A DNA stretch of 34,497 nt from an uncultured bacterium (GTDB lineage: Bacteria > Patescibacteriota > Minisyncoccia > Moranbacterales > GWC2-37-73). The notes under the pieces are model-generated. The model was not told where the DNA came from. It saw only the letters and a program-made list of their open reading frames with translations, and did no database searches. Every line of letters begins with the position of its first letter. Position 1 is the first letter of the stretch. Location: the NCBI GenBank assembly GCA_903824515.1, contig CAIJXA010000009.1, positions 1-34,497 of the forward strand. The letters are read 5' to 3'. A program made the translations under genes and the position numbers. Positions 6,115 through 31,883 of this stretch are shown piece by piece.

Positions 6115-6624
6115 TTAATTTCTTGAATAAATCAAAAACTTCTTTTTATTCTCAGAAAGGTCAATGAAATCATCCAAGGCTTCTCCAAGTTTAGCACTAG
6201 TACTTTCACCAAAAGCCATACCTTCCACGCGACAACCAGTAGTACTTTGAATATATTGCACGAGTGGAATATAATCTCCGTCACCAGACACCAGCACGAT
6301 CACATCCAAACTTTTGGAAAGCTTGATGGCATCAACGGCAATGCCCACATCCCAGTCCCCTTTTTTGACGCCGCCAGGAAAAACTTGCAAATCTTTGGTC
6401 TTAACTTCAAAACCTTGCTTTTCGAGGGCTTCAAAAAATTTTTCTTCTTGGCCGTCTACAGTTTTGATTCCATAGGCGATGGCACGAATAAAAACTCGCT
6501 CGCCCACCGCTGCTTCCAGTACTTTTTGAAAATTTACTTTCTTGCCATATAGAGCTTTTGCGCTGTAATAAAGGTTTTGGATGTCCACCAAAACTCCCAC
6601 ACGCTGTTCTTTTGATCTGAGCAT
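6115..6624 (-). CDS. NYN domain (LabA/DUF88-like) protein
   Basis: VGVLVDIQNLYYSA ... GDWDVGIAVDAIKLSKSLDVIVLVSGDGDYIPLVQYIQ: NYN/PIN-like acidic motifs. Confidence 0.85.
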   Translation of the reverse strand: MLRSKEQRVGVLVDIQNLYYSAKALYGKKVNFQKVLEAAVGERVFIRAIAYGIKTVDGQEEKFFEALEKQGFEVKTKDLQVFPGGVKKGDWDVGIAVDAIKLSKSLDVIVLVSGDGDYIPLVQYIQSTTGCRVEGMAFGESTSAKLGEALDDFIDLSENKKKFLIYSRN

Positions 6625-6632
6625 ATTATTTT

Positions 6633-6734
6633 ATTACGGATTTAAACAAATTAAAAACGGATTTTCACGGATCACGGATTTTGCTGAAGCCAGGTTCATC
6701 CGTGATTCGTGTCCATCCGTCATTAATCCGTAAT
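6633..6734. repeat. Imperfect inverted repeat of iterated ATCCGTG units
   Basis: ATTACGGATT ... AATCCGTAAT ends. Left arm ACGGATTTTCACGGATCACGGAT, right arm ATCCGTGATTCGTGTCCATCCGT. Confidence 0.7.
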
Positions 6735-6745
6735 CATCTTTGGTT

Positions 6746-7015
6746 TTAGCCCTTAAGTCCAAGTTCTTTGATGATTTTTTTGTAAGTTTTTTCGTTGGTT
6801 TTTTCAAGATAGGAAAGTAATTTTCGTCTCTTGGCCACCATTTTGAGCAGTCCTCGGCGAGAATGAAAATCTTTTTTGTTCTTTTTCAGGTGAGAAGTTA
6901 ATTTCTTGATACGTTCAGTGAACATTGCAATTTGATATTCTGGAGAACCTGTGTCTTTCTCATGACGTTTAACTTCTTTTGTGACTTTCTCTTTTTGCTT
7001 GTGCGTTAGCGACAT
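6746..7015 (-). CDS. rpsO: 30S ribosomal protein S15
   Basis: 89 aa; [50 protein letters not shown] is S15 signature. Confidence 0.96.
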
Positions 7016-7133
7016 AGCGTTTGTTTGGCGATAGGCTCGTTTAAGCTTTATTTAAGCTAAAACCAACGTATGCTCAATAAAATAATTTAATTACCTTCAA
7101 ACCATAACACGTTAATTTGTTTTTGGCAAATGA

Positions 7134-9593
7134 TTAGATAACCGCTGCCGCTGCCACCTTATCCCCAGCCTTTGGTTTCATGATGCGAACTCCTTGAGTG
7201 GCGCGGCCAAGCACGGAGATGCTTTTAAGCGGAATTCGTATAATTTGACCTTGGAGTGAGGTGATAAACAAGTCACCTTCAATTTCGTCAATATTAATAA
7301 TGTGAGCTCCAACTAATCTGCCAATCTTGGCTGTGATGTTGGCAGTTTTGATTCCGGATCCGCCTCGCTTTTGAATTTTGTAAGCTGCTAGGTCAGTTCT
7401 TTTGCCGTAACCGTTTTCCGTGATGATTAAAAGTTGATTGCCTTTTTGCCCTTTCAGCACGATATCCATACCAACCACGAGGTCGCTGCCCTTTAGTTTG
7501 ATGCCACGCACACCGGCAGCGCTTCTTCCCATGGCTCTCACATCTGATTCTTTGAAGCGAATAGCTTGACCGCCGGCAGTACTAATGGTGATTTCATCGT
7601 TGCCAGTTGAAGGCAGTACCCAATTAAGGGTATCACCCTTGTCTAAAGTGATAGCGATGAGACCGCTGCGCCTTACATTGTCAAAATCCTCAATCTTTGA
7701 TTTTTTCACAACGCCGTGAGTGGTGGTCATAAAGAAAAACTTATAGCCATCATTCTTATTATACGGAATCATGGCAGTGATTTTTTCTTCCTGGGCAAGT
7801 TGCAAGAAATTAACCACGGCTTGTCCTTTACCAGTACGTGATGATTCTGGAATTTCGTAGGCCTTGGTTTGAAAAACTTTGCCGGTGTTTGTGAAGAACA
7901 TTAAATTATCATGAGTCATTACACTGGTAACTTTTTCGATTACGTCGCCTTCTCTTGTGGTAGCGCCTATTACTCCCTTGCCACCGCGATTTTGAACCTT
8001 ATAAACATTTGGATTCATTCTTTTTATGTAGCCATCTTGAGATATTGTCAAAATTGCTTCTTCATTTGGGATGAGGTCTTCTTGCTTGAATTCTTCAATG
8101 CCAGTGCGCAATACTTTGGTTTTGCGTTCGTCGCCGAATTTTTCTTTAAGCGCAATTAATTCATCTTTAACAACTGCTAAAATTTTAATTGTACTAGAGA
8201 GAAGATTTGTCAATTGGGCAATAGTTTCTAATTTTTCAGCTAACTCGTCCTCAATTTTTTTACGTTCCATTCCAGCAAGCGTTTGTAGGCGCATCTCAAG
8301 AATTGCACTTGCTTGCTTTTCAGACAATTTAAACTTCTTCATCAAGTTAATATGAGCCTCTTCCTTTGTTGGAGATTTTCGAATCGTTTCAATAACAGCG
8401 TCAATGTGGTCAAGTGCTATTTTTAGTCCCTCCAGAATATGTGCTCGATCTTTAGCCTTATTAAGCTCAAATTTAGTTCTTCTGGTGACTACAATATTTC
8501 TGTGAGCGATATAATGCTCAAGAATTGACTTCAAACTTAAAATTTGAGGGTCAATACCCCCTACCAAAGCCAACATGTTAACATTAAAATTCTTTTGTAA
8601 ATCAGTCGCATTGTATAGCTTGTTTAAAACTTTTTGGGCATAGGCATCTTTTTTTAGTTCAATCACGATTCGTACGCCATCCTTGTCTGATTCATCCCGC
8701 AAATCACGAATCCCTAGGATTTTGCCCTCTTTGACAAGGTCAGCAATTTTCATAATAAGGGTTGCCTTATTTGTAGCGTAGGTTATTTCAGTAATAATTA
8801 TATGAAAGGCTCCAGCCTTGGTTTCAATTATTTCAGCTTTAGCTCGAGTTACGATTTTGCCACGGCCAGTTGAATAAGCTTCTTTAATTCCAGGAGTGTT
8901 ATACATAATGCCACCAGTTGGAAAATCTGGACCTTTCACGAACTGCATTAGCTCGTCAATTGAAGCCTCGGGGTTATCAATTAAATGATTAATAGCATCG
9001 GCTAGCTCATTTAAGTTGTGAGGAGGGATATTTGTGGCCATTCCAACGGCGATTCCCATGGTGCCATTTAGCAAAAGTTGTGGGAGTTTAGCTGGCAAAA
9101 CTACGGGTTCTTTGTGAACCCCGTCAAAATTTGGAATAAAATCAACCGTGTCTTTCTCAATGTCGAAAAGCATTTCTTCTGCAATTGGTCGGAGTTTTGC
9201 TTCGGTGTAACGATAAGCGGCTGCGCTATCTCCATCCATTGAGCCAAAGTTTCCCTGACCCCAAACCAAGGGATAGCGAAGTGAAAAATCCTGAGCTAAG
9301 CGAACCATCGAATCATAAACTGCCGTGTCACCATGTGGATGATACTTTCCGAGAACTTCTCCAACCACTGTGGCTGATTTTCGAAATTTAGCAGAAGGTC
9401 GCAGACCTGATTCCCACATGGAATACAAAATTCGACGATGAACAGGCTTGAGTCCATCTCGGACATCAGGAAGCGCACGAGAAACAATCACACTCATGGC
9501 ATAGTCTAAATAAGATTGTTGAACTTCTTGCACCAAAGCGCGTGGCTGAATGTTCTCCACAAAAGGAACTACGATTTTTTCAGTTGATTTCAT
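7134..9593 (-). CDS. gyrA: DNA gyrase subunit A
   Basis: [33 protein letters not shown], catalytic Tyr context [12 protein letters not shown]-terminal beta-pinwheel with [10 protein letters not shown] (GyrA box-like). Confidence 0.97.
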
Positions 9594-17167: not shown

Positions 17168-17241
17168 GGGTTTATAGCTCAGTTGGTTAGAGCGCTACAT
17201 TGACATTGTAGAGGTCTGCAGTTCGAGTCTGCATAAGCCCA
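17168..17241 (+). tRNA. tRNA-Val (anticodon GAC)
   Basis: Acceptor GGGTTTA/TAAGCCC, anticodon arm CTACA-TTGACAT-TGTAG, T-arm TGCAG-TTCGAGT-CTGCA, no encoded CCA. Confidence 0.95.
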
Positions 17242-18804
17242 CATATCAATACAAGCAGAAGTGTGAGCTTCTGTTTTTGTTTTGCTTAAAGCATAAACGG
17301 GCTCAAAATTTGGTACGAAGGTGGAATTTCCGCCTTTTGGCAAATTAAAGTTTTTCAAATCTTCAAGCAAACAACTAAAAGGCTCCTTTAAAGCAAAATC
17401 AAACACTTTTTTGTTCTTGATGATGAGGTTCGAAGATAAAATTGAAAGAACTTCTTTTTTGGTTTCATCGTCGCCATCTTTAAAAATTCTGCCAGCTAAT
17501 TTCAAAAACATTAGCATGGCCTGAATGGCTTCGAAAACTTTAACACTACTTCGCTCCATATTTTCGGTTTTGCAGTCCAGAGTGGCTTCTTCTTCGCGAA
17601 GCTCTTTAAGCGTTTGCTGGTAAAGATTTTCGGGAATCTTATCGTCAATATATTTTTCCACGAGAGCTTTCTGGCGTGAGCGATTGCGCTCAAGCAAAAA
17701 AGTATTTTTGTTTTCAATATCCTGCTCATATTCCCCCTGGCGTGTTCCATTTTCTTTGATTGCTTGAACAGCCACTTCCAGAATTTCATAATCAAAACTG
17801 AAGTCATCAACACTTTGGCCAATTTCAAGTATCAAATCTTTTTCGCTCACATATTTTCTTTGATCACACTGATCAAATCCTTTGGATTTTGTGCAATGAT
17901 AATATGTATACCAATGCACATTGTCGCCATGCACCTTTTTTCTGATTTCTGCTGTCATTCGCAAACCACAAGCACAATGCATAAATCCGCGAAACAGAAA
18001 GTGTTTCTTTTTGTCTTGTTTGCAGTGTTTCTTTGGCTCCATAATATCTTGCGCCTCATCAAAGAGATCTTTGGAAATCAGTGGCTCGTGCACTCCTTTT
18101 TGCAATATCCCTTTCCAAATGAAATAGCCGTAGTAAACAGGATTTTTGAGCATGGTATAAATTGAGCCATGATAAACTTTCTTGCCAGTGTGTGAACGCA
18201 ATCCTTCATCAAAAAGCAAATCCGCCAAAGATTTCAAAGAATAATTTCCAGTCACGTAAAGCTTGAAAGCTTTTACGACATATTGAGCTTCAATTTCGTC
18301 AACTTCCATTTTGCGAGTTTTGTAATTCGTCTTGTATCCCAACGGGGGACAAGTGGCATATTCTCCGCGTTTAACTTTTTCATCAAGTCCGCGCCTCACA
18401 TTTTTGGAAAGGTCACGCACATATTGATTAGCCATGCCAAATTCCACACTGGCGATCAAGGCATTGTCATCTGGCAGATAATCACGGTCGTTAGTTTTGA
18501 TGATTTTGATAATGCCTTTTTGTAGCATCCATTTTATGGTGCCTTCATCTTTGGGATTTCTAGCCAAGCGATCAATTTTCCAGCAAAGAATGGCATCAAA
18601 TTTTCCCTGCTCAAATTTCTTAATCATCTCATTGAAAATAGGACGTCCTGGGTCTTTGGCGGATTTTGATTCTTGAAAAATTTGCACAATCTCAATGCCA
18701 TCGCGCCTAGCGATTTCTCGCATAGTAGAAATTTGATCTTCAATTGATTTTGCTTGGCGGTCTTCGCTTTCAGAAGACTTGCGAGCATAAATGATATATT
18801 TCAT
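17179..18804 (-). CDS. Large serine recombinase (resolvase N-terminus, recombinase domain, zinc-ribbon/coiled-coil)
   Basis: MKYIIYARKSSESEDRQAKSIEDQ (catalytic Ser region), CWKIDRLARNPKDEG, FLFRGFMHCACGLRM...YYHCTKSKG...QCDQRKYV zinc ribbon. The last ~20 aa are antisense to tRNA-Val. Confidence 0.93.
   Translation of the reverse strand: MKYIIYARKSSESEDRQAKSIEDQISTMREIARRDGIEIVQIFQESKSAKDPGRPIFNEMIKKFEQGKFDAILCWKIDRLARNPKDEGTIKWMLQKGIIKIIKTNDRDYLPDDNALIASVEFGMANQYVRDLSKNVRRGLDEKVKRGEYATCPPLGYKTNYKTRKMEVDEIEAQYVVKAFKLYVTGNYSLKSLADLLFDEGLRSHTGKKVYHGSIYTMLKNPVYYGYFIWKGILQKGVHEPLISKDLFDEAQDIMEPKKHCKQDKKKHFLFRGFMHCACGLRMTAEIRKKVHGDNVHWYTYYHCTKSKGFDQCDQRKYVSEKDLILEIGQSVDDFSFDYEILEVAVQAIKENGTRQGEYEQDIENKNTFLLERNRSRQKALVEKYIDDKIPENLYQQTLKELREEEATLDCKTENMERSSVKVFEAIQAMLMFLKLAGRIFKDGDDETKKEVLSILSSNLIIKNKKVFDFALKEPFSCLLEDLKNFNLPKGGNSTFVPNFEPVYALSKTKTEAHTSACIDMWAYADSNCRPLQCQCSALTN
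17256..17279 (+). terminator. Terminator after tRNA-Val, lying within the recombinase 3' coding region
   Basis: CAGAAG-tgtgag-CTTCTG-TTTTTG. Confidence 0.6.
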
Positions 18805-18838
18805 ATTAGTTTTTTGTTAAAAATTTATATTTTTGCAT

Positions 18839-18967
18839 AACAAAAGGGCGACCCTGTCTGGACTCAAATCTTTGCAGAATTTGAAACAGAATCGCCCTTT
18901 AATCGAAACGATAAAGACATAGCAAAGCATCGCTTCAAAAAATTCTGCAATATTAATTTGAGTCCAT
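18839..18967 (-). promoter_or_regulatory. Candidate attenuator/alternative RNA structure upstream of the serine recombinase
   Basis: Minus strand: terminator-like AAAGGGCGAttCTGT...ACAGggTCGCCCTTTTGTT. Its loop AAATTCTGCAA-ag-ATTTGAGTCCA is perfectly complementary (11+11 bp) to upstream TGGACTCAAAT-taata-TTGCAGAATTT. Confidence 0.6.
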
Positions 18968-19156
18968 AAATATATTATCATATCCTTTTCAATATTTCTA
19001 GTGATACTTTTCGCGTGTACCTTCCGTGCTTCTACGTCTCTAAATAGGTCTTGGCTCGTTTCTGTTTCGTGAGTCAAATTAAGTTTTCATTCTCGCCAAA
19101 CTTTTAAATACCAAGCGGAGGTTATTTCAAAATCAACTCTGCGGAAAGCGGTCAAA

Positions 19157-19273
19157 AACATTTTTCCATTCGAAAATATTATTCTTATAACGGACAATTT
19201 GCCAGACTGATTTTTTTGGATTACCAAAAAAATCAGACAGGCAAATTTCATTCTTTCAAATAGAAAAATGTTT
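19157..19273. repeat. Nested inverted repeats
   Basis: Inner AATTTGCC-aga-CTGATTTTTTTGG-atta-CCAAAAAAATCAG-aca-GGCAAATT (19196-19247); outer AAACATTTTT ... AAAAATGTTT. Confidence 0.8.
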
Positions 19274-19400
19274 CACACCGCACAATTTATACAGATTTTG
19301 AAAAAACTTTTTTTTAGAACACAATGAGGAAAAGAAAAAGAGCAAGGGATTCGAAAAAACTTCTTTTAAAAACTTTCCTAGGGACTGTTTTTTCTTCACC

Positions 19401-19516
19401 TCTGACAAGACGACATTGTGCAACATGAGCACAAGCGTCAAACCAAGAAAGGTTCTGCGTACCCTCGCCCCTTTCTTGGGTCGCTTGGCATGTACGCACA
19501 ATACTGCCTTGTCAGA
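19401..19516. repeat. ~115-nt rod-like imperfect hairpin, possible structured ncRNA
   Basis: Collinear stems TCTGACAAG/CTTGTCAGA, ATTGTGC/GCACAAT, ACATG/CATGT, CAAGCG/CGCTTG, ACCAAGAAAGG/CCTTTCTTGGGT. Confidence 0.65.
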
Positions 19517-19554
19517 CTCATTTTCTTTTCACAATCTGATTTCAACTCACCCAA

Positions 19555-19574
19555 CCCTCTCAATCTTGAGAGGG
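19555..19574. repeat. Short perfect hairpin
   Basis: CCCTCTCAA-tc-TTGAGAGGG, extended by CTCAC/GTGAG. Confidence 0.75.
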
Positions 19575-20024
19575 CGTGAGATTGCCAAGATTCATGAACT
19601 GCGCCTCTTTTCTGTCTTGTGAATTTGCGAAAAACAGTGATTCGTTGCGGGGCGCGGCCGGCGGAACAATTTCTCCCCAATTCGGACCCACCAATCAATG
19701 TGAAACTAATGGCTCAACCAAGCCACAAAATAAAATATTGTCCGGCTTGTAGCGCTTATTGCGCGATATTTTGGTTTTTAAAAGTTCGTTTTGAATTTTT
19801 GATTTTTGTTTTTGCTTCGAATGGTTTATGATTCTTGAATTCCGTAATTTTCTGAAATTCAGTTGGATTTTGAATTTTGCATTGATGAATTTAATGATTC
19901 GTGGGTTTCGTTTTCTGATTGGATGTCACTAGTTAAGTTACGATACGAGTAACGAAACGTTAACGAATCGTTAAAGTCAAGTTTCGTTTAACTTACGATA
20001 CTTTTCTTTTCGCTTCCTTTTCTT

Positions 20025-20387
20025 TTAATAATTCTTCTCTGGCCTGTCGAATTTTCTGAAAGCAAAAGAGATCGAAGCAAGTTCCTGGAAGGGACATTCG
20101 AACCCTGCATTTTTTGGCGCATGCCTCCAAAGTTTGCATTGCGCATTGCAGGGAACATCGCAATATGGATCACTCCAAATTGGGCATACCTTGTCATCAC
20201 TTCGCACTGGTCGCAGGGGTTGTCTTTTTTGTGATTGACTCTGTTGAGGTTGAGGTTGCTGTGGTTGAGCGTTTTGAGGCTGGGCTTGTGAAGGTTGCCC
20301 AAGATCTTCCTTTTTGGCGTATTCATCAACTGGAAATTCGTACTTTTTGTTTTTGGCAGCTTCGCCAAAAGATTGAAATTCTGACAT
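20025..20387 (-). CDS. Small unknown protein, Pro/Gln-rich linker and Cys-rich C-terminus
   Basis: MSEFQSFGEAAKNKKYEFPVDEYAKKEDLG...QPQQPQPQQSQ...CPIWSDPYCDVPCNAQCKLW...CPF; preferred over the overlapping frame 19988-20368. Confidence 0.55.
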   Translation of the reverse strand: MSEFQSFGEAAKNKKYEFPVDEYAKKEDLGQPSQAQPQNAQPQQPQPQQSQSQKRQPLRPVRSDDKVCPIWSDPYCDVPCNAQCKLWRHAPKNAGFECPFQELASISFAFRKFDRPEKNY

Positions 20388-20399
20388 ATTTTTTTGTGC

Positions 20400-20660
20400 T
20401 TATTTTATTAGCTGTTTTTTATGTTTGCGGATACTTTCGTAGTTTAAATATTGATTGTAGGCTGGGCAGTTGAGAAATTCAGGACTGTGACAACATTTTT
20501 CTTCTCCTTTCTTGAGCGTGTGTCCCTTGAGCTTTTCACAGTGAAAGTTTTTGTTGGTCAAAAGCGTGCAATGTTTTCTTTTGATCGCTTCCTCTATTAT
20601 TGCTCTGTTGATTTTGCGGTCTTCTGATCTTTGAGACCATTTTTTCTGCGTCTGAGTCAT
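20400..20660 (-). CDS. Small Cys-containing unknown protein
   Basis: 86 aa, collinear with neighbours; C-rich HCEKLKGHTLKKGEEKCCHSPEFLNCPAY. Confidence 0.5.
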   Translation of the reverse strand: MTQTQKKWSQRSEDRKINRAIIEEAIKRKHCTLLTNKNFHCEKLKGHTLKKGEEKCCHSPEFLNCPAYNQYLNYESIRKHKKQLIK

Positions 20661-20743
20661 ATTTTTGATTGTTTAGTGATAAATGTATGCTTGATTAAGT
20701 TTAATCCCACCATGAAGCAGTTTTGCTTCAAAACGTGCAGTCC

Positions 20744-20953
20744 TCAGGGAGGTTTTGAGTTTTCCAAGTCGCGCAAAATCTGATATTTTTCTTTTTTGTT
20801 GTAGTCATCATTTTCAACAAGTCGAGAAAACCAATAACGGATAGTGCGTTTTTGGAAATTCTGGCCATCAATTGACAAACGAAAGCAAACCAGGGAACTA
20901 GTCAGGGAATTCCTTTTTGAAAAATGTTTAAAACGCCTTTGAATTGATCTCAT
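20744..20953 (-). CDS. Small basic unknown protein
   Basis: 69 aa; ATG overlaps the stop of the upstream ORF by 4 bp (20950-20953). Confidence 0.4.
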   Translation of the reverse strand: MRSIQRRFKHFSKRNSLTSSLVCFRLSIDGQNFQKRTIRYWFSRLVENDDYNKKEKYQILRDLENSKPP

Positions 20954-21171
20954 GGCTTTTTGTCTTTTAGGTGACTTATATCCGTCCTGCCTTCCACCAC
21001 ATTTTTGACAAAAAGCATTCCGAGTTGGCTGAGCCGATCAAGCCAAAGTTCAATTTCGCCGTCGCTTAAAGAACGCTTCGCTTTTCTTTCGAAGACGTCT
21101 TTGGCTTTTTTCATAAGTTGCTCTGAGTAGTGGCTTTTCATAGGAAATTGTGCGGAACTGCGTTTGCGCAA
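20950..21171 (-). CDS. Small unknown helical protein
   Basis: 73 aa, EQLMKKAKDVFERKAKRSLSDGEIELWLDRLSQLG; collinear with the 407-aa ORF. Confidence 0.5.
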   Translation of the reverse strand: MRKRSSAQFPMKSHYSEQLMKKAKDVFERKAKRSLSDGEIELWLDRLSQLGMLFVKNVVEGRTDISHLKDKKP

Positions 21172-21274
21172 GCTCCTCCTATGGGCTTACTTCTGAAATT
21201 TCAGGGCAAAACAAAAAACCCTTTTGGCAAAGGATTTTTTGAGATAAAGTTCACGGTAAAATATCGCTGAAATT

Positions 21275-22498
21275 TCAGTCCGTGTGTTCTAGTTTCGGTT
21301 GTTCATACAAACCAGGGGTCTGATCATTGAAGGAATCTTCCCAGTCAGCAAATTTGTCCACCTTTTTGTTTTTCATTCTTCGATCGAGATAATCATCGCG
21401 AAAGTCCCTGGGTGGGATTATATGAACCTTGATTTTGTATTCTTGTTTTTCCTTGTCCCATTTTTCAAAAGGATCCGCGTCTTTGATTGTGGGGAAAAAG
21501 TTTTTGAAAGTTTTTGTCAGCTCCTTTTTTCTTTGTTGATATTGCAGTCTTTCATGTGCTTTCAGTTTTCCAACTGCGAAAACGCCTTGTCCCGTACCAA
21601 GATAAAGCAAGAGATACCAACACTTTTTCAGTTCTTGCTTGCCGTTTCTTCTGATGTCAATAAGTCCGAATTTTTCAAAGTCACTGTAAAAAGTTTGATC
21701 TCCAATTTTTGCTCCGATTTCAAAATTGTCATAAAGGGTCAAAAAGATGTCTTGCCAGCGGGTTTTTGGTGGGAGATGGATTGCGTGAGGGTTAGCTATT
21801 GTTTTTTTGGCACCAGTCTTTGCTTTGGGCACTTTTTCACCAGAAGCCTCGGAAATCAATTTTTCCTTGGTCACTATTTTAGCCAAAAAACAGCCATCTT
21901 CGAAGGCAAGGCTTTGAAGCCCAAAATATCCTTGAGTTTCTAAAGCTAATGTAGTTTCAATAAACCTAAAATTATTCTCAAAATCGCAACTTTTCAGGCG
22001 GATGACTTTTTCGGTTTTATCCAAATACTTTTTGAGAAATTCCAGGATTTTTTCCTTGTGAAAAGAAAAAGAAGGATAAAGCTCATCCCCAAATTCCAAT
22101 TTTCCTTCAATGAAATTTTGGATATATTTTTCAATTCTTTGATGGATTTTTTCTTTGACTGTTTTTCCGATCTCCATTTGAAAATTCAAAATCTCGATGT
22201 TTTTGTCATGAAGTCCCGGTCTTTCTGACATATATGCGAGCAACTTTTCAAAGCTGTCTTCTTTCCAAGGCTCAATGCCTTCAAAAGTGAGGCTTCTTGG
22301 AATCAAATTGTATTTTTTGGATAATGCGACAATCCAGCCAAAAACTTTCTGCTTGCTGGCTTCCTTAAACTGAAATTTCTTGAACTGCATAAAATCCAAG
22401 GTCATTGGTGATCTGCTTGGATATTCGATGAGATTCAGCATCAGAAAGAGAAAATCTTCATCCATATATGGAGTTGACTCAGGGTCTTGATTTTGCAT
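21275..22498 (-). CDS. Unknown 407-aa element-encoded protein
   Basis: Long ORF with plausible composition (MDEDFLFLMLNLIEYPSRSPMTLDFMQFKKFQF...); no family recognised. Confidence 0.75.
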   Translation of the reverse strand: MQNQDPESTPYMDEDFLFLMLNLIEYPSRSPMTLDFMQFKKFQFKEASKQKVFGWIVALSKKYNLIPRSLTFEGIEPWKEDSFEKLLAYMSERPGLHDKNIEILNFQMEIGKTVKEKIHQRIEKYIQNFIEGKLEFGDELYPSFSFHKEKILEFLKKYLDKTEKVIRLKSCDFENNFRFIETTLALETQGYFGLQSLAFEDGCFLAKIVTKEKLISEASGEKVPKAKTGAKKTIANPHAIHLPPKTRWQDIFLTLYDNFEIGAKIGDQTFYSDFEKFGLIDIRRNGKQELKKCWYLLLYLGTGQGVFAVGKLKAHERLQYQQRKKELTKTFKNFFPTIKDADPFEKWDKEKQEYKIKVHIIPPRDFRDDYLDRRMKNKKVDKFADWEDSFNDQTPGLYEQPKLEHTD

Positions 22499-22721
22499 GG
22501 CTTAATGTTAGCAAAAATGGAGGGAACAAGTAAATATCGGGGCGCATAAATGGGCGGGGGCTGAAGTTTACTTTTAGTATACATGTTGATACTATATGGA
22601 TAAGATTGTTAAAATAAAAAAAGTACGAATTGAGGTAGTCCTCAAAAAATAGATGGCACCAAGTAACTGAAACGCCCCCAGTGTTAGATTACCAGAATTG
22701 AATCCAGAGAATACAGACTTG

Positions 22722-22753
22722 ATATTTTGAAAGTCAAAAGACTTTCAAAATAT
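22722..22753. repeat. Perfect 14-bp hairpin upstream of the nuclease cassette
   Basis: ATATTTTGAAAGTC-aaaa-GACTTTCAAAATAT. Confidence 0.85.
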
Positions 22754-22803
22754 ATAATAAAAAGTATTGATTATTTTTTGAAATAATTATTTTATTCAAC
22801 AAT

Positions 22804-23715
22804 ATGAAATCATTTAGAATGGAAAAGGAAACTAATCCAATTAATAATATTATTGGCTTAGTTGGTATTTTCATATTGATAGTAATTTTTGTAAGCTTTT
22901 TTCTGAATTTCAATAAAAAAGATGTAGCACCCAAGGAAAAAACAATCACCGACAAATCAACATCTGCCTTAGCAATATCGCAAAGTGAAATTGAAAAATT
23001 GAAATCAGCGGTTGATAAAAATCTAACCTTTAGCATAGTTGCGAGTAATCCAGAGGCATATAAGGGGAAAACTATTCAATGGGGTGCTAAAGTTTTTACG
23101 CAACCAGAAAAAGATAAGAATGGAGTTTATTTTCAAGCGTATGAAAGTGGAGAGGATAATAATTTTGCTATCTCATATGCGAAACCCGATTTTCAAATAA
23201 AAGATGGTGATTTTATTATTGTTACTGGAAAAGTTACTGGAAAATTCCAAGGTGAAAATGCGTTCGGTGCCAAGCTTGAAGTTCCAACAATTGAAGCTGG
23301 ATATGTAGAAATTGGAACAAGAAATGATGTCGTTGCTCCGACTGAAAATGAAGTCTTAGTAAATCAATTAAATACGCAACACGGCTTCACAGTTATTTTA
23401 AATAAGATTGAGTTAGCAAAAAATGAAACTAGATTTTTTTTCAAATTAAAAAATGAAGGTAAGGATAAGGTAAACTTTTATACATACAGCTCCAAAATAA
23501 CACAAGGAACCAAACAGTATGAGACCGAGAGCGCATATAATAACAACCAAAAACTTCCGAGCGAAATACTCCCAGGTGTTGAGGCGGATGGTGTGATTAC
23601 CTTCCCTGCAATTGAAAATGCTCCCAAGAAAATAACTATACATTTGGATGATCCAAGCAATGGCAATTATTCCATAAATTGGAACACTATAAAATTTGAC
23701 GTTGTACTACCATAA
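22804..23715 (+). CDS. Membrane-anchored protein with OB-like and DUF4352-like C-terminal regions
   Basis: N-terminal TM (IIGLVGIFILIVIFVSFFLNF), then NPEAYKGKTIQWGAKVF...DFIIVTGKVTGKFQGENAFGAKLEVPTIEAGYVEI; beta-rich C-terminus. Confidence 0.75.
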   Translation: MKSFRMEKETNPINNIIGLVGIFILIVIFVSFFLNFNKKDVAPKEKTITDKSTSALAISQSEIEKLKSAVDKNLTFSIVASNPEAYKGKTIQWGAKVFTQPEKDKNGVYFQAYESGEDNNFAISYAKPDFQIKDGDFIIVTGKVTGKFQGENAFGAKLEVPTIEAGYVEIGTRNDVVAPTENEVLVNQLNTQHGFTVILNKIELAKNETRFFFKLKNEGKDKVNFYTYSSKITQGTKQYETESAYNNNQKLPSEILPGVEADGVITFPAIENAPKKITIHLDDPSNGNYSINWNTIKFDVVLP

Positions 23716-23717
23716 AT

Positions 23718-24014
23718 ATGAATATAAATTTGGATAAATTTTGGGAATGGTTACAGCAATGGAGTGTTGGAAAAATCATAGTGACACTTTCTCTGCTCGT
23801 TATTATTTTTAAAGACTTTTTGTTTAACCCTAAAGTGCTAAGTTATTTTATTGCATTAGGTGTTTTTCTTCAGCTGTTTGATTTTTGTGATAATAGCCTA
23901 ACAAATTCATGCAAAAAGGATATTGGAAATATTCAAAAAATTGGGCTTAATATTTATATGTTAATAGCAATTATTTCTATGATTGTCATAACATATAATC
24001 TCCTACGACTTTAA
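23718..24014 (+). CDS. Small membrane protein
   Basis: 98 aa with about 3 hydrophobic segments; 2 bp after the previous stop. Confidence 0.65.
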   Translation: MNINLDKFWEWLQQWSVGKIIVTLSLLVIIFKDFLFNPKVLSYFIALGVFLQLFDFCDNSLTNSCKKDIGNIQKIGLNIYMLIAIISMIVITYNLLRL

Positions 24015-24034
24015 CTTGATTTTCAATTATAAAA

Positions 24035-25087
24035 ATGGAAATTTATAAAGACATAGACAAATTGGATGGAGTTGAATTTGAGGATTTAGTTGAAAAACTA
24101 ATTTCCAAAATGGGATTCATAACGGAACGAACCAAGCGTTCTTTTGATGGTGGGATTGATATTATTGCCATTAATGAGCAACCTCTTTTTGATGGGAAAT
24201 ACATAATTCAATGCAAAAGATATTCAAAATCAATTGGGGAACCGATTTTAAGAGATTTGTATGGGGTTGTAAATTCCGAACATGCAAATAAAGGCATTTT
24301 GATAACAAATTCATATTTTACAAAATCAGCAAAAGAATTTGCTAAAAATAAACCGATTGAACTAATCGCAGGGGAGAAACTAGCACAGTTGTTGGATAAA
24401 TATCTTGGTTTTTATTCAGAAAAGAAGCTTGGTGAACTAAAAATACCAGAGGCATATAAAATAACAGCTGATTTACTTGTTCCTGCCATAAAGGAAATCG
24501 AAAAAAGAAGAGCACAGATTAAAAGTGGTCTTATTTTCATCGACAAAAAAGACTTAACTAATGATAAAATTTTCTATAATTTTTTGCAAAAGAAGCAATC
24601 AACACTGTCATTACTAATTCAAACAATGACGAACCAATTTAATCACATGTACTTTTTGTGGGAAAATTCAAAAGGAGAAAATGAAAAATATACAAACTTA
24701 TTAGAACTAAAACAGCATTGCACAGAGTTTACCATGAGCATGCAAAAAATGGAAAAAGAATGGGAGGGCTTTTTCGGTGTTAAAACATCAGAAAATTTGC
24801 ATAGACTCCATGCGATAGCCTGTGAATTTTACGAAGCTATTTTTAAAGAAAATGAGAGGGTTATTTTAGAGCTAGCAAATATTATAAACATTCCAGATAA
24901 CCTCGTACCTGAAAATAATAAGGAGGTAAATCTTGCAGTAAATTACGATATAGGAAAATCTGCCGAGGAATTCGGCAAGGAAGTGGACTTGATATCTAAA
25001 AGAAATAACACGAATAACTCTCGTGGTGGGTGCGGGCTTATGACGGCCTTACTGTTGGTAATATTTTTTGTTATTATTATATTTTAA
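24035..25087 (+). CDS. Mrr-like restriction endonuclease with C-terminal transmembrane helix
   Basis: EFEDLVEKLISKMGF...GGIDIIAINEQPLFDGKYIIQCKRYSKSIGEPILRDLYGVVNSEHANKGILITNSYFTKSAKEFA (PD-(D/E)xK, GxD...QxK); C-term GLMTALLLVIFFVIIIF. Confidence 0.85.
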   Translation: MEIYKDIDKLDGVEFEDLVEKLISKMGFITERTKRSFDGGIDIIAINEQPLFDGKYIIQCKRYSKSIGEPILRDLYGVVNSEHANKGILITNSYFTKSAKEFAKNKPIELIAGEKLAQLLDKYLGFYSEKKLGELKIPEAYKITADLLVPAIKEIEKRRAQIKSGLIFIDKKDLTNDKIFYNFLQKKQSTLSLLIQTMTNQFNHMYFLWENSKGENEKYTNLLELKQHCTEFTMSMQKMEKEWEGFFGVKTSENLHRLHAIACEFYEAIFKENERVILELANIINIPDNLVPENNKEVNLAVNYDIGKSAEEFGKEVDLISKRNNTNNSRGGCGLMTALLLVIFFVIIIF

Positions 25088-25111
25088 ACTGATTTATATT
25101 TTTTCTAAAGA

Positions 25112-27265
25112 TTACAAATCAAAATTCTTCTTGTAATAGCTCAGCCTCTTTTTGAACAATCTTTCAAGATATTCAACTTTTGCGTCCCTGTAATCATAAA
25201 TCTTTCCGCTTCTGTTTTCTCCTCTTTGAATTCTGCCGATATATTGCGTGAGTTTTCCATGAAATGAAAATGGGTAGACCAGAAAAAGACAATCAAGATT
25301 GGCAAAATCAGTGCCTTCGCCAATGAGTTGTCCTGTGGCAATGATTATTTGAAAATTCCCAGCTTCAATCTCCGCGATTCTTTCCTTTCTTCTTTTGTCA
25401 GTCAGATTTCCAGTCAGCAAAACAACTTCATATTTGTCTTTCAAATATTCATTGAGTGTTTCAGCATGTTCTTTGCGTTCAGTCAAAACCAAACATTTGC
25501 GCATTTTGTCAGCTTCGATTTTGATGTCCTCGACAATTTGATTGTTTCGATTTGAATCAAAGATGATGATCTTAGAGGGTATTTCAAAATCTTCAGGTTT
25601 CACTTTGAATGGAATTTCAAGGGTTGTTTCTCTGATAATGACACTTGTCTTTGTATTCTTCAATATCGTTTTTGTTTTTTCATAATTTTTATCAACAACA
25701 TGCAAAATTTCTCCCAAATACATGTGAATCAATTTTTCATCATTGTTTTTGCGTTCTGGCGTGGCAGTCATGCCATAGAGATAATGCGGTCTTAATTTTG
25801 TGATGACGTTGCGAAACATTCTAGCTGGCACATGGTGGCACTCGTCGACAATAACTAATCCGACCTTGCTTGAAATATCATCAATATTTTCAATCTTATT
25901 AAGCGTCTGCACCATGGCAACTGTAATCTTTTTTCCAACAGTTCTTTTGCTGGCGCAAAATTGCCCGATGTCTCTTTTGGGAATTGCTAGAAAACTTTCA
26001 ATGCGATCAAGCCACTGATTGTAGATTTGCTTTTTGTGAACCAAAATCAAAGTTGGTTGCTTAAGCTTTGCAATCAAATCAATTCCCATGACAGTTTTAC
26101 CCGATCCTGGTGGCGCAACCAAAACGCCATTGTCAGCGTTCAGCATTGATTCCACTGCTTCGCTTTGATAGTCAAAGAGCTTGTATTTCGGACTGAATTC
26201 TATCGGCTCAGACTTGAAACGCTTATCCATTATTTCATATTTGATTGATTTTTCGTTCAAAAAATCAGTGAGCTGAGGCGAAAATCCTCTTGGCAGTGCA
26301 ACCAATTCGCCCTCTGAATGTATAAGTTTGAAATATTTTTCCAAGCCATATACACTCATGCCCATTTTCTTTTTGATCAGAAAATCAGCATTGATCAGAT
26401 TGAGATTGTCTTTCAAAAAAATAGCCACCGATTTTGGCAAATTATTTTTCAGAATATATAGTTGCTCTTTCAGGGTTATGGTCAATTTGTTTTTATGATT
26501 GCTAGAAACAAGTGGCGCTTCGCTATTGAATGATTGCCAAATGTTATCCAATTTTGCTGTTGAAATTTTCTTTGCTTGTTTCAAAAATTCCCACTGGTCA
26601 GCAACCATTTCAAAATTATTATCGTAGTTAATAAAAACAGAATTGCCAAGCTTTCTTGATTCTCCTTGCAGTGGCAGGGCAATGAGATTGCCCATGCCTT
26701 CTCCGCCGTGCATATCCTGATTGGGGAAAAGTCTGTCAAAAGAATCATCCTTGTCGAATTGATCAATGATTTCAGCTTCTTTCAAAATATTTGTCGCAAT
26801 TGATCTACTTTTATATGCAGGATATTTCTCTTCAAAAAATATCCAAACATGAGCGCCATTTCCAGAGCGTGACCTTTCAAGATAAGCTTCAATGCCGTGC
26901 TTTTGGCATTGCCTAGCAAATTTTGTGGCTTCTTCTTGCCAATGGTTTCCATCAAAATCAGCAGCTATAAAATATGAGCTATTGTCATCAAGCAAGGGGT
27001 AGACACCATAAACTTTATTGCCCCTCAAATGCTGTTCAATATGATAATCATCGAGTTTGGCATAATCTTTGTGCGGGCAGTCTTTGCATTTCTTTCTCAA
27101 AAGCTTGTTGCACAAGCCCTTTTTCCATTCATTGGTGCATACTGGCGTATATCCGCTTGCCGAACCATCTGCCTTTTGCCAGCGCACCGCAAAAACATCA
27201 TCCCTGCCTTTTAAAAGATTTTTGTAAATGTCTATTTTCTCTTGCGATGATAACTGGCTTTCCAT
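25112..27265 (-). CDS. AEP-family primase (TOTE-like) fused to SF2 DEAD/DEAH helicase
   Basis: Zinc-binding CTNEWKKGLCNKLLRKKCKDCPH, AEP motifs YFIAADFDG and RSGNGAHVWIFF, GNLIALPLQG; helicase GVLVAPPGSGKT, VIVDECHH, GMTATPER, QYIGRIQRGE. Confidence 0.87.
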   Translation of the reverse strand: MESQLSSQEKIDIYKNLLKGRDDVFAVRWQKADGSASGYTPVCTNEWKKGLCNKLLRKKCKDCPHKDYAKLDDYHIEQHLRGNKVYGVYPLLDDNSSYFIAADFDGNHWQEEATKFARQCQKHGIEAYLERSRSGNGAHVWIFFEEKYPAYKSRSIATNILKEAEIIDQFDKDDSFDRLFPNQDMHGGEGMGNLIALPLQGESRKLGNSVFINYDNNFEMVADQWEFLKQAKKISTAKLDNIWQSFNSEAPLVSSNHKNKLTITLKEQLYILKNNLPKSVAIFLKDNLNLINADFLIKKKMGMSVYGLEKYFKLIHSEGELVALPRGFSPQLTDFLNEKSIKYEIMDKRFKSEPIEFSPKYKLFDYQSEAVESMLNADNGVLVAPPGSGKTVMGIDLIAKLKQPTLILVHKKQIYNQWLDRIESFLAIPKRDIGQFCASKRTVGKKITVAMVQTLNKIENIDDISSKVGLVIVDECHHVPARMFRNVITKLRPHYLYGMTATPERKNNDEKLIHMYLGEILHVVDKNYEKTKTILKNTKTSVIIRETTLEIPFKVKPEDFEIPSKIIIFDSNRNNQIVEDIKIEADKMRKCLVLTERKEHAETLNEYLKDKYEVVLLTGNLTDKRRKERIAEIEAGNFQIIIATGQLIGEGTDFANLDCLFLVYPFSFHGKLTQYIGRIQRGENRSGKIYDYRDAKVEYLERLFKKRLSYYKKNFDL

Positions 27266-27327
27266 TGAATTTCAGCAATTATGAAATGCTTATTGTCCCC
27301 ACAAAATACCAGCAATATGCGAAAAAT

Positions 27328-27376
27328 GCAAACAAAAAAACAAGAGTTTAGGCTCCTGCTGATTTGTTTTTTTGTT
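27328..27376. terminator. Bidirectional-looking terminator between primase-helicase and hepT-like gene
   Basis: AAACAAAAAAACAAgagtttaggctcctgctgatTTGTTTTTTTGTTTT. Confidence 0.5.
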
Positions 27377-27388
27377 TTAAGTGAAAGT

Positions 27389-27739
27389 CTATTTCAAAAG
27401 AGATTTTACAATTTTTTTCAATTCTTTCAAATCATCCTGGCAAGTTTCCCAAACAATCTTTTTGCTCACTCCAAAGTATTCGTGAATGAGCTTATTTCTG
27501 ATTCCGATAATCAGCTTCCAGGGAATGTTGGGATTTTCTTTTTGAAATTCATTACTGATATTATTTGAGGCCTCTCCGATAATTTCAAGTTCCCGTATCA
27601 CAGCATCAAAGGCCATATCATTTTGGGAGAAATTTTCAAAATCACCAACATACTTGATGTATTTTTCAACCTTTTCTATGGCTTCCGAAATATGTTCAAG
27701 ATATGTTCTGTCATTTCTCATAGATAAGTTCAGCTTCAT
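27389..27739 (-). CDS. hepT: HepT-like HEPN (DUF86) toxin
   Basis: ELEIIGEASNNISNEF...IPWKLIIGIRNKLIHEYFGV with RX4HXY motif (RNKLIHEY). Confidence 0.9.
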   Translation of the reverse strand: MKLNLSMRNDRTYLEHISEAIEKVEKYIKYVGDFENFSQNDMAFDAVIRELEIIGEASNNISNEFQKENPNIPWKLIIGIRNKLIHEYFGVSKKIVWETCQDDLKELKKIVKSLLK

Positions 27740-28052
27740 TGATTACTTCATCGCGAAAAAATTTACTAAGACTATCAGGAGTGAGGAGGTCAACCTTTTT
27801 TTGAATGTGACCTTCCATAGTATATTGAATTTCAACAAGGTCAAAAAGGCTGATGTGGGCATCAGGCGTAAATTCCATCAAGACATCCACATCGCTGGTT
27901 TCCTTGGCATCACCGTGGAGATATGAACCGAACAAAGACACTTTCTGAATGTCTTTTTTAAATTTATTGAGTTCAATAGCTTTTCGAACCCGGTCTTTGA
28001 TTTCTTGTTTACTCATATATTTTTCCTTTAATCTCAGTATACCATAATACAA
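27711..28052 (-). CDS. mntA: MntA-like minimal nucleotidyltransferase antitoxin
   Basis: VSLFGSYLHGDAKETSDVDVLMEF (GSX9-10DXD); overlaps hepT by 29 bp. Confidence 0.88.
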   Translation of the reverse strand: MYYGILRLKEKYMSKQEIKDRVRKAIELNKFKKDIQKVSLFGSYLHGDAKETSDVDVLMEFTPDAHISLFDLVEIQYTMEGHIQKKVDLLTPDSLSKFFRDEVINEAELIYEK

Positions 28053-28264
28053 TGCAAAATCAACAGTTGGCTCATATTATGACACAAACTTTGCAAAATA
28101 CAAAAATATCAAACTTTAGCCATTAAATCCCTGATTTGATCCAGCTTAACCTTTGTCGGCTCCCAATTTTGCAAAATTTTGGTATATGATATACTAAACG
28201 GGCTGATGGGGTTACAAGAACTGTCTTGCTGTCCCCACAAAAAAAGTACACACTAAAAAAGAAA

Positions 28265-28310: not shown

Positions 28311-28454
28311 ATTATCTAGCGAAGTAAATTAAATGAGAGTACTCTTTCATTTTCGAGCGAGCGACGATAACAAAAGGGTGATTTGCTCACGCAGCTTGCT
28401 GCGTGAGCAAAAGGGGTACAGGGCTTGCCACGGGGTATTAATACCCATTTATTA
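28311..28454 (+). repeat. Dispersed structured repeat, copy B
   Basis: ATTATCTAGCGAAGTaAA..AAATGAGAGTACTCTTTCATTTTCG..GCGACGATAACAAAAGGGTGATTTGCTCACGCAGCTTGCTGCGTGAGCAAAAGGGGTACAGGGCTTGCCACGGGGTATTAATACCC. Confidence 0.9.
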
Positions 28455-29528
28455 ATTGCAATTTGAACCTGTAGCCCCGGCGCTAATGTTAACTGCACAA
28501 CTATTACCTGTTTTTGCCGAGGTGTTGTATGATTTTAGTCCAGCGCTAAGATTTGTTCCACCAACACTAGCAGAAACGTTCCATCCAGCAGATTTGCTGT
28601 AGGATAAACTAAATGGAAGCGTGCTAAGTTTTTGATCAATTGAATTCTTGATTGGGTCTACAATACCGTAGTTACCAATTCTAGCTGCTGTGCTTATGGC
28701 AGTGCCCTCGGCAATCTGAAGCAAAGCTGAAGGTGTTTGTTCAAAAGCTCCGTTATTTGTAGCACTCATCGAGAGTTGAGTTCCCATCTTATCAACCTCC
28801 AGGAGAGCGTTTTGAGCAATTGAAGCTGGGTTGGTTATGCGACCATTTGATTTTGTTGGCATAAACCCACCAGAATTTTCGTGGATTGCAATTGTTTGTG
28901 CCTTAGTAAATTCAGCATTATACTTTTCAGTTGCTACCAATGTGTAGCAATAGGGATTATTTGAGCATTGAAAAAATGACATAACACCCTTCATATTTCC
29001 CCCCGAAAACATATTGGTGGCTGGATCTGTAACCTGAGACTGAATATCTGTCGTAAATGACTGTCCGTTTATTGCATTTTTCGCTTGAGCGATCAAATAG
29101 GCATCATAGTTTGTTCCAACACCCTCGTAGTTGAGCGATGATGCCCGACCTTGACTAGTGCTATTGAAAAATGCAGTCATTTGAGTCGTTGCTTCTCGCT
29201 TTGGAGCATTGTAAAGATAGTCAGCAAAATCTCGAATAATCGTAGAATTGCCACTCTCACCACCAACCAATGCCTTTACAAGAAGCTGTTCTGCCTTCAT
29301 TGCAAGTAATTTAGCAGCGACAATTGATCCTGAAGCGGCTATATTTGCTACTTTAGATAATACTCTTTCTATAACTGTTTCACTCGTTGCTACGTCAGTA
29401 AAAGTCGTTTGTCCTGCTGTGACAACACCTGGTCCTACATCTACAACTGGAATTGCTGCCTCAGCTTCGAGTTTAAATCCAAAAAGCATTACAAATAAAA
29501 GTATTAATAAGAGAATTTTCTTTTTCAT
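28452..29528 (-). CDS. Secreted protein, unknown function
   Basis: Signal peptide MKKKILLLILLFVMLFGFKLEAEAA; Ala/Ser/Asn/Thr-rich; C-terminal Cys pair. Confidence 0.7.
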   Translation of the reverse strand: MKKKILLLILLFVMLFGFKLEAEAAIPVVDVGPGVVTAGQTTFTDVATSETVIERVLSKVANIAASGSIVAAKLLAMKAEQLLVKALVGGESGNSTIIRDFADYLYNAPKREATTQMTAFFNSTSQGRASSLNYEGVGTNYDAYLIAQAKNAINGQSFTTDIQSQVTDPATNMFSGGNMKGVMSFFQCSNNPYCYTLVATEKYNAEFTKAQTIAIHENSGGFMPTKSNGRITNPASIAQNALLEVDKMGTQLSMSATNNGAFEQTPSALLQIAEGTAISTAARIGNYGIVDPIKNSIDQKLSTLPFSLSYSKSAGWNVSASVGGTNLSAGLKSYNTSAKTGNSCAVNISAGATGSNCN

Positions 29529-29550
29529 GAAACAATTTTTTTATATTTAA

Positions 29551-30510
29551 CTAATTGATTTGCTTGAGGTAATCTTGGAAATCATTTGCAAAAAATACAT
29601 TTAATAAACCCGTTAGGTCCTTTATTTTGGTTAAAATAAGCATTTTTCCTAACGGATCAGTTGTGTTGTCAGATGCGGGTAAGTTTTTTAAAAAAGATGT
29701 AGCACCAATTAATCTGGCAAATTTGAGGTGTAGGTCAATCATGGTTTCTGGTACCTCAAGTGTGTTATATTGTTGTAAAAAAAGTTCTAAACGGTTTCCA
29801 AGGTCAGAAAAATACTTAGTATTTTCTGGACTAGAAAAATCAGCAAGACGATTCATAAAATCGTTTTGGAAAGTATCTAGATCTTCAGTGGTTACTATGG
29901 ATATTGGTGCGTTGCTAATTAATAAGTAAGTAACTTGATTTATATATTGTGCGGCATCTTCTTGAATTTTTCGCTTTTTGTCCTCAGTTGAGAGTAAAGA
30001 ATATTGTTGATTCTTAATCTTTAATTGCGACCTGTCTATGGTTATCACATCATTAATGTCTGTGACGCTAAGTTTATCTGTTAGGGATGTATCTATGAAT
30101 GATTTAACATCTGTGGTTGAGATATTTTGTCCATTTTTTGAATTGATAAATGCTTGAAAATCAGCGCTAAAAGAGTCTGTCAAGGATGTTTCCGAAGTAG
30201 TTATTTTTTGTGCATCTGGCCCACTATTCGCAGTCACGATCTTATCTCCTGGCGCTGCTTTTAATGGGTTGTACCCGCTTTTCACTTCAACACCATCAGA
30301 ATATCCATCCCGGTCAGTATCCGGATTTCGCGGATCCGTACCGTATAGTGCCTCTTCGCTGTCGCTTAGGCCATCACTGTCCGAATCAAGAACCATTGCT
30401 TTTTGTGATGAATCATTGCTGGCAGCAAAGGATAATAAGTTAAAGCCAGCAAAAAAGACTATGCAAAGGATGAGTAATGTGAATTTTATATGTTTGATTT
30501 TCATATGCAA
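29551..30510 (-). CDS. Secreted protein with thrombospondin type-3-like Ca-binding repeats
   Basis: Signal peptide, then DSDSDGLSDSEEALYGTDPRNPDTDRDGYSDGVEV. Confidence 0.82.
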   Translation of the reverse strand: MHMKIKHIKFTLLILCIVFFAGFNLLSFAASNDSSQKAMVLDSDSDGLSDSEEALYGTDPRNPDTDRDGYSDGVEVKSGYNPLKAAPGDKIVTANSGPDAQKITTSETSLTDSFSADFQAFINSKNGQNISTTDVKSFIDTSLTDKLSVTDINDVITIDRSQLKIKNQQYSLLSTEDKKRKIQEDAAQYINQVTYLLISNAPISIVTTEDLDTFQNDFMNRLADFSSPENTKYFSDLGNRLELFLQQYNTLEVPETMIDLHLKFARLIGATSFLKNLPASDNTTDPLGKMLILTKIKDLTGLLNVFFANDFQDYLKQIN

Positions 30511-31057: not shown

Positions 31058-31073
31058 TGTTCCACGTGGAACA
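31058..31073. promoter_or_regulatory. parS-like site 1
   Basis: TGTTCCACGTGGAACA, perfect palindrome. Confidence 0.85.
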
Positions 31074-31272
31074 GATTACTTTGAATCCAATAAAGCTGTA
31101 TTCTATTAATAATATTGCCGTCTACAAATGTAGACCTTAATTTTGATCAAGCCGATTAATTGATGATAATAATTAGTGAGGTTCTTGCAACTTCTTGAAT
31201 AGCGCCATAAGGTTAAGAGGACGCCTTGAAAAGTCGCTTAATTTTAGTGTGATTATAGAGTGACAAATTTTT

Positions 31273-31288
31273 TGTTCCACGTGGAACA
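31273..31288. promoter_or_regulatory. parS-like site 2
   Basis: TGTTCCACGTGGAACA. Confidence 0.85.
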
Positions 31289-31290
31289 AG

Positions 31291-31387
31291 ATTACGATAA
31301 CAAAAGGGTTATTTGTCTACGCAGTTTGTTGCGTGAGCCCAAGGGGTACAGGACTTGCCCTGTGATATTCATGCCCCTTTTATTAAT
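31291..31387 (+). repeat. Dispersed structured repeat, copy C (5'-truncated)
   Basis: TTACGATAACAAAAGGGTTATTTGTCTACGCAGTTTGTTGCGTGAGCCCAAGGGGTACAGGACTTGCCCTGTGATATTCATGCCCC. Confidence 0.85.
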
Positions 31388-31414
31388 CATGGCTACAAAT
31401 GGATGTTCTTGGTT

Positions 31415-31430
31415 TGTTCCACGTGGAACA
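31415..31430. promoter_or_regulatory. parS-like site 3
   Basis: TGTTCCACGTGGAACA. Confidence 0.85.
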
Positions 31431-31516
31431 AAATAGGCTTTATTGATTTAAATAATGATTTTTCTGCAAATATGTTATCTAGGTATTCTTGAGATAATTT
31501 TCTTTTTTCATAATAC

Positions 31517-31532
31517 TGTTCCATGTGGAACA
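31517..31532. promoter_or_regulatory. parS-like site 4 (variant)
   Basis: TGTTCCATGTGGAACA (one central change). Confidence 0.7.
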
Positions 31533-31564
31533 ATATTATGAAGAAAAGATGGTAAATTATTGAT

Positions 31565-31580
31565 TGTTCCACGTGAAACA
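31565..31580. promoter_or_regulatory. parS-like site 5 (variant)
   Basis: TGTTCCACGTGAAACA, within the TGTTNCACGTGNAACA consensus. Confidence 0.85.
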
Positions 31581-31659
31581 ATCTTGTTATTTAATTAATT
31601 CATTGCTGAGAATATATTTTGTGAAATGATTAACAGGAAACAAGATTATTAATCTATGC

Positions 31660-31675
31660 TGTTCCACGTGGAACA
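31660..31675. promoter_or_regulatory. parS-like site 6
   Basis: TGTTCCACGTGGAACA. Confidence 0.85.
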
Positions 31676-31765
31676 ATGTTTGATTGGATGCTTTTGTTTT
31701 GTATTTGTTGGATTGTAATGCGAACAATAAATATATATACATATGTGTTGCTACTGGCCTGCTAT

Positions 31766-31781
31766 TGTTCCACATGGAACA
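31766..31781. promoter_or_regulatory. parS-like site 7 (variant)
   Basis: TGTTCCACATGGAACA within a longer palindrome GCTATTGTTCCACATGGAACAATAGC. Confidence 0.7.
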
Positions 31782-31867
31782 ATAGCAGAAGATATTTGTA
31801 AAATATTAAAGTGCCATAAATTGTCATATTTATTATTTAAGTGCTGATTACATCAATTGAGGTATTT

Positions 31868-31883
31868 TGTTCCACGTGGAACA
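31868..31883. promoter_or_regulatory. parS-like site 8
   Basis: TGTTCCACGTGGAACA. Confidence 0.85.

Follow-up and report, generated by a model that had tools for sequence, protein, structure and literature searches.

A tail-anchored Mrr-type nuclease and a relative of prophage lipoproteins as a possible envelope defence cassette on an integrative element

What might three closely packed genes for membrane proteins, one of them a nuclease, accomplish together in a bacterium of the Patescibacteriota? The question is raised by a stretch of 34,497 nucleotides (the window; contig CAIJXA010000009.1, order Moranbacterales). The host assembly spans 1.26 Mb at 99% completeness, which is the sole basis for calling the organism a reduced-genome bacterium. 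The locus consists of the following features, in window coordinates.

About 22590 to 22792, plus strand: remnant of an XRE/HTH_3 regulator gene, with in-frame stops and its start lost; the intact copy lies at 6440 to 6661 of a sister locus, L018.
22804 to 23715, plus strand: g1, a membrane-anchored protein of 303 residues, with a transmembrane segment at about 16 to 35 and a conserved core at 57 to 303, the C-terminal part of which is DUF4352-like.
23718 to 24014, plus strand: g2, a small membrane protein of 98 residues with two to three hydrophobic segments; an orphan, in place of which the sister cassette has an unrelated small gene.
24035 to 25087, plus strand: g3, a nuclease of 350 residues, with Mrr_cat at 7 to 120 (E16, D42 and Q59xK61), a helical linker at about 125 to 325 and a C-terminal tail anchor at 331 to 350.

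The original prediction described three tightly collinear reading frames, and all three do lie on the plus strand, with gaps of 2 nt between g1 and g2 and 20 nt between g2 and g3. Hydropathy likewise bears out the hydrophobic segments that it assigned to every product: one at the N-terminus of g1 (maximum 19-residue hydropathy 3.19), two or three in g2 and a single one at the C-terminus of g3 (2.88 for the terminal segment 328 to 350). Overlooked were the XRE remnant, the integrative element on which the cassette lies and the kinship of g1 with prophage lipoproteins. Sequence searches of the PDB yielded no relatives, and DNA-level comparison with E. coli genomes no matches.

Residues 7 to 120 of g3 match Mrr_cat in Pfam (PF04471; E 2.6e-35; 121.4 bits versus a curated cut-off of 21), in keeping with its earlier designation as an Mrr-like PD-(D/E)xK nuclease with a C-terminal transmembrane segment. 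Absence of the catalytic residues on alignment had been named beforehand as a possible refutation; when the catalytic domain of g3 is aligned with relatives within the phylum (40 rows), E16 is retained in 37 rows, D42 in 39, and Q59 and K61 in all 40, so this refutation does not apply. PADLOC profiles for type IV mREases cover residues 2 to 126 and, together with the strong Mrr_cat match, are consistent with a type IV-like restriction enzyme that would cut modified or foreign DNA in the cytoplasm, its tail incidental or toxicity-limiting and g1 and g2 accessory or passengers. However, no modified-base- or DNA-reading domain is recognised in g3, in which no Pfam, NCBIfam or PHROG match passes cut-off outside the catalytic domain. 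Residues 125 to 325 are unmatched in Pfam, PHROGs and plasmids, and this helical domain has no relative among 384 class genomes (the window aside) or in plasmids. Moreover, g1 is kept with g3 under equal purifying selection while the surroundings change. Type IV-like restriction is thus somewhat unlikely, although it gains from the finding that the phylum has many membrane-bound Mrr proteins that do not resemble g3 along their full length.

That finding also undercuts the premise, on which the original prediction leaned, that Mrr proteins are usually soluble. By the same crude hydropathy measure, 23 of 40 further Mrr proteins of the phylum carry N-terminal hydrophobic segments, as counted on stop-to-stop segments, a few of which possibly begin upstream of the true start; several of these relatives end C-terminally in a zinc-ribbon-like part. 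What is unusual in g3, as read from its sequence, is the reverse order, in which the catalytic domain is followed by a helical stretch of about 200 residues and then by a tail anchor that runs to the last residue. Among the Mrr matches found, this order occurs only in the window and in one further genome, G110. The domain that precedes the anchor of a tail-anchored protein is cytoplasmic, and because no residues follow the anchor of g3, its nuclease domain is predicted to face the cytoplasm. AlphaFold models of g3 and g1 had two-row alignments as input and were of unusable quality (mean pLDDT 38 and 49).

Only one full-length relative was found. It lies at locus L018 of genome G110, which belongs to the same order but another family, and the cassette is thereby present in 2 of the 131 genomes of the order. 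The same gene order and close spacing recur there (g1 at 6711 to 7703, small gene at 7724 to 7990, g3 at 8001 to 9077). Between the two loci, the g1 core (from residue 57) is 75% identical and g3 73% identical, and similarity at the DNA level breaks off at either edge of the small gene. At its N-terminus, g1 has a different anchor at each locus, with one hydrophobic segment in the window and two in L018, and the C-terminal transmembrane segment of g3 is retained despite its changed sequence. As judged from substitution rates, the g1 core and g3 are under strong purifying selection, with a dN/dS of about 0.1 for both genes (dN 0.15–0.16; synonymous divergence 1.4–1.5, which is near saturation) and a dN of 0.06 in the catalytic domain of g3.

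The expectation that the genes would be found together elsewhere holds for g1 with g3, which co-occur in two genomes, but not for g2, a homologue of which is missing from the other locus. Nothing matches g2 above a cut-off, its alignment with the product of the L018 small gene scores no higher than shuffled sequence, and no convincing homologue was found in 124 genomes of the order. Conservation of all three genes as a set was consequently rejected. On this comparison, the unit is a selected pair of g1 and g3, accompanied by a small membrane gene that changes and a regulator that is optional. The last of these is intact upstream of g1 in L018, where it encodes 73 residues; the remnant in the window is 82% identical to it.

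The turnover of g2 bears on an abortive-infection or toxin-antitoxin-like arrangement, in which g3 would be a DNase toxin restrained by g1 and/or g2, freed on envelope damage and lethal to the infected cell. Such an arrangement could draw on the tight operon, the tethered nuclease, the fast-changing small membrane gene and the toxin-antitoxin neighbours on the element, as well as on the toxicity of the membrane-bound nuclease SNIPE once it lacks its tether (PMC13190303). However, an antitoxin specific to g2 is unlikely because the small gene is swapped while g3 stays 73% identical, and in relatives the g1 core belongs to a lipoprotein of the outside type; this arrangement therefore appears improbable. 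A lack of any functional unit, with selfish or decaying genes brought together by chance on a mobile element, might explain the broken XRE gene, the orphan g2 and the occurrence in two genomes only, but it is hard to reconcile with an order and near-contact spacing shared in two families and with a dN/dS of about 0.1 on g1 and g3, and we regard it as quite improbable.

The cassette of G110 adjoins SMEK-CTD10 and DUF2326 genes, which belong to an ABC-3C type system. Because it is 73% to 75% identical to that of the window in unrelated surroundings, where the background divergence of the two genomes is such that FtsH is 71% and TilS 49% identical, the cassette has probably moved laterally. More widely, the flanks at L018 2391 to 6080 and 9370 to 10224 hold a RhuM fragment, a BRO-N gene and the ABC-3C-type genes already named. 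A tRNA-like 3ʹ fragment (L018 9157) served to look for the left boundary of a comparable element in G110; it proved to be single-copy in that genome.

In the window, the features of the vehicle are as follows.

17168 to 17242, plus strand: tRNA-Val(gac), the insertion site; its 3ʹ end reads CATAAGCCCAC, versus CATAAACCCAC in relatives.
17179 to 18804, minus strand: large serine recombinase (Resolvase, Recombinase and Zn ribbon domains), overlapping the 3ʹ part of the tRNA gene.
17243 to 28236, no strand: integrative element of about 11 kb that carries the cassette and is missing from seven relatives; its right end is approximate (28.20 to 28.45 kb).
25112 to 27265, minus strand: AEP-TOTE primase fused to an XPB-like helicase, on the element and convergent to g3.
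27389 to 28052, minus strand: toxin-antitoxin pair of type VII (HepT-MntA), at the element's right end.

In seven relatives from the same genus and family, homologues of window positions 28452 to 29528 come immediately after the membrane-protein gene and tRNA-Val, and homologues of 29551 to 30510 are likewise present in most of these insert-free genomes. The last bases of tRNA-Val differ between the window and the five relatives whose junction was compared, as would follow from a tRNA end supplied by the element itself. The only candidate core at the right end is a short shared CCCACA, which leaves that boundary approximate.

The minus strand of the element also carries five reading frames without family matches between 20025 and 22498, among them one for a 407-residue protein and one of 120 residues that is weakly TraV-like, below cut-off. 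Outside the element, an 87-nt repeat (28364 to 28450 and 31294 to 31380; 82% identical) flanks the gene pair at 28452 to 30510. Eight parS-like 16-bp palindromes (TGTTCCACGTGGAACA and variants) occupy 31058 to 31883, and five relatives have clusters of six to nine such palindromes at the corresponding position; this pattern suggests a conserved chromosome-partition site near the tRNA-Ala and tRNA-Arg genes.

A membrane nuclease in a bacterium with a small genome of 1.26 Mb might instead serve DNA uptake or nutrient scavenging by processing DNA that the cell has taken up. That role is very improbable for a cassette that occurs so rarely (in 2 of the order's 131 genomes), is mobile and adjoins defence-type genes.

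The remaining evidence comes from g1, which had been described as OB/DUF4352-like. For the DUF4352 half of that description, PF11611 aligns with residues 214 to 280 at 23.9 bits, just under the curated cut-off of 25.9, and a phage homologue of g1 passes that cut-off with 27.5 bits. The OB-like half matched no library. Outside the order, the g1 core has three convincing matches: a protein on an Aneurinibacillus plasmid (L049; 35%, E 1e-32), the phage homologue just mentioned, from a human-gut phage fragment (L098; 34%, E 5e-30), and one on an IMG/VR contig (L099; 34%, E 2e-40 within candidates), which was found with a deeper g1 alignment. Each of the three has a hydrophobic leader at its N-terminus, with a lipobox-like cysteine. 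In 11 further genomes of the order, a g1 profile of two rows matched the anchor region only; these matches were not counted as homologues. A Foldseek search with g1 returned nothing below E 0.001, and scans of IMG/VR with exact peptide patterns, which miss distant relatives, found no close relatives of g1 or of g3.

The gene order around these homologues is that of lysogeny modules. In L098, an XRE repressor, an ImmA-type peptidase and a short lipoprotein-like gene precede the g1 homologue, and a tyrosine integrase follows it. In L099, a CI-type repressor and a 68-residue hydrophobic gene lie on one side, and an ImmA-type peptidase and then a serine integrase on the other. On the plasmid, the homologue adjoins HTH and S24/LexA-type repressors. 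The position near repressor and integrase is a property of the homologues in L098 and L099, not of g1 itself, and no g3-type nuclease stands beside the g1 homologue at any of the three phage and plasmid loci. The 68-residue gene of L099 (4585 to 4791), directly upstream of the g1 homologue, is a possible positional counterpart of g2. In Streptococcus phage TP-J34, the same lysogeny-module position is held by ltp, which encodes a lipoprotein of the cell surface that prevents the injection of DNA (PMC3952083). With lipoproteins as relatives, the g1 core would be expected to face outside. However, lysines around the g1 transmembrane segment are more numerous after it than before it, and the g1 of L018 has two hydrophobic segments; these leave doubt, and the core could be inside.

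From sequence, there is good support for the nuclease nature of g3, for its anchor and for its link to g1; a defence role for the cassette is likely, and DNA-entry surveillance is plausible. Surveillance of this kind had been proposed from the supposed solubility of Mrr proteins and the membrane tethering of all three genes, an argument that proved weak, but purifying selection on g1 and g3, carriage with defence-type genes on a mobile element in the window and beside an ABC-3C system in G110, and the lysogeny-module homologues of g1 support the conclusion independently. We infer topology, physical interaction, DNA-entry specificity and defence itself from two genomes. Our preferred reading, held tentatively, is that of a mobile defence cassette at the cell envelope that detects or stalls foreign DNA and cuts it at entry. 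The tail anchor at the inner face of the membrane would confine Mrr-type catalysis next to the membrane and so spare the chromosome; g1 would present its DUF4352-like domain outside, as kin of lipoproteins in prophage lysogeny modules; and g2 would be a changeable membrane partner. Together, the three would detect or stall phage, plasmid or transforming DNA as it enters and cut it there.

Several results count for envelope defence: the intact Mrr_cat site, the retained C-terminal segment and the low dN/dS of g1 and g3; their presence in unrelated neighbourhoods (the tRNA-Val element with TOTE and HepT-MntA, and ABC-3C in L018); identities of 75% (g1 core) and 73% (g3), set against 71% for FtsH and 49% for TilS; and lipobox homologues between repressor and integrase (L098 and L099) or beside repressors (L049), with SNIPE (PMC13190303) and Ltp (PMC3952083) as precedents. 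Counted against it are the restriction to two cassettes, the lack of conservation of g2, g1 homologues without an adjoining nuclease, the doubt over g1 topology and the poor AlphaFold models. A more specific version, rather doubtful as it stands, is a two-sided DNA-entry trap on integrative elements of small-genome bacteria, in which a surface g1, kin of phage lipoproteins at the superinfection-exclusion position, acts with a tail-anchored cytoplasmic Mrr nuclease, and which would have reached a SNIPE-like strategy independently.

Membrane-localised nucleases that sort foreign from own DNA by the site of entry rather than by sequence have recently been established with SNIPE (PMC13190303). If envelope defence is correct, a second, unrelated design built from a nuclease and kin of prophage surface lipoproteins would suggest that the strategy arose more than once. 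It would also offer a simple, testable system of two or three genes and a hint to the function of an uncharacterised family of prophage lipoproteins.

Known systems resemble the cassette in parts. Like Mrr and type IV restriction endonucleases (PF04471), g3 has the catalytic domain and its active-site residues; unlike them, it has a C-terminal tail anchor, a helical domain without relatives, no recognised modified-base reader and a g1 neighbour in both known copies. Ltp of phage TP-J34 (PMC3952083) shares with the g1 homologues a place between repressor/ImmA genes and integrase and the character of a surface lipoprotein, but neither g1 nor its homologues match an Ltp family in Pfam, and g1 has a transmembrane anchor and no cysteine. 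Zorya and Kiwa, further precedents for spatial specificity (PMC12904381), likewise pair a membrane protein with a DNA-acting one, and ZorD of Zorya ends in an Mrr-like nuclease, the part that g3 matches. However, the cassette lacks the ZorAB motor, ZorC, KwaA and KwaB, and g3 lacks a helicase; a PADLOC search for ZorA, ZorB and ZorC gave only a ZorB match to the g1 transmembrane region (E 0.01).

SNIPE is a membrane-bound nuclease with DUF4041 and GIY-YIG domains that cuts DNA during injection, and its inner-membrane tether both prevents self-damage and positions the nuclease where phage DNA is injected (PMC13190303). The cassette shares with it a membrane-tethered nuclease (by hydropathy for g3, in L018 as well), a variable membrane part and the proposed cutting at entry; the poor conservation of the N-terminal membrane region of SNIPE (PMC13190303) resembles the swapped g1 anchor and swapped small gene. 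Unlike SNIPE, the cassette has neither DUF4041 nor GIY-YIG by Pfam, and its nuclease is of the Mrr-type PD-(D/E)xK class, with catalysis first and anchor last, and is accompanied by a separate g1. By this analogy, the best reading of the cassette is a system that would be SNIPE-like in concept and unrelated to SNIPE in its domains.
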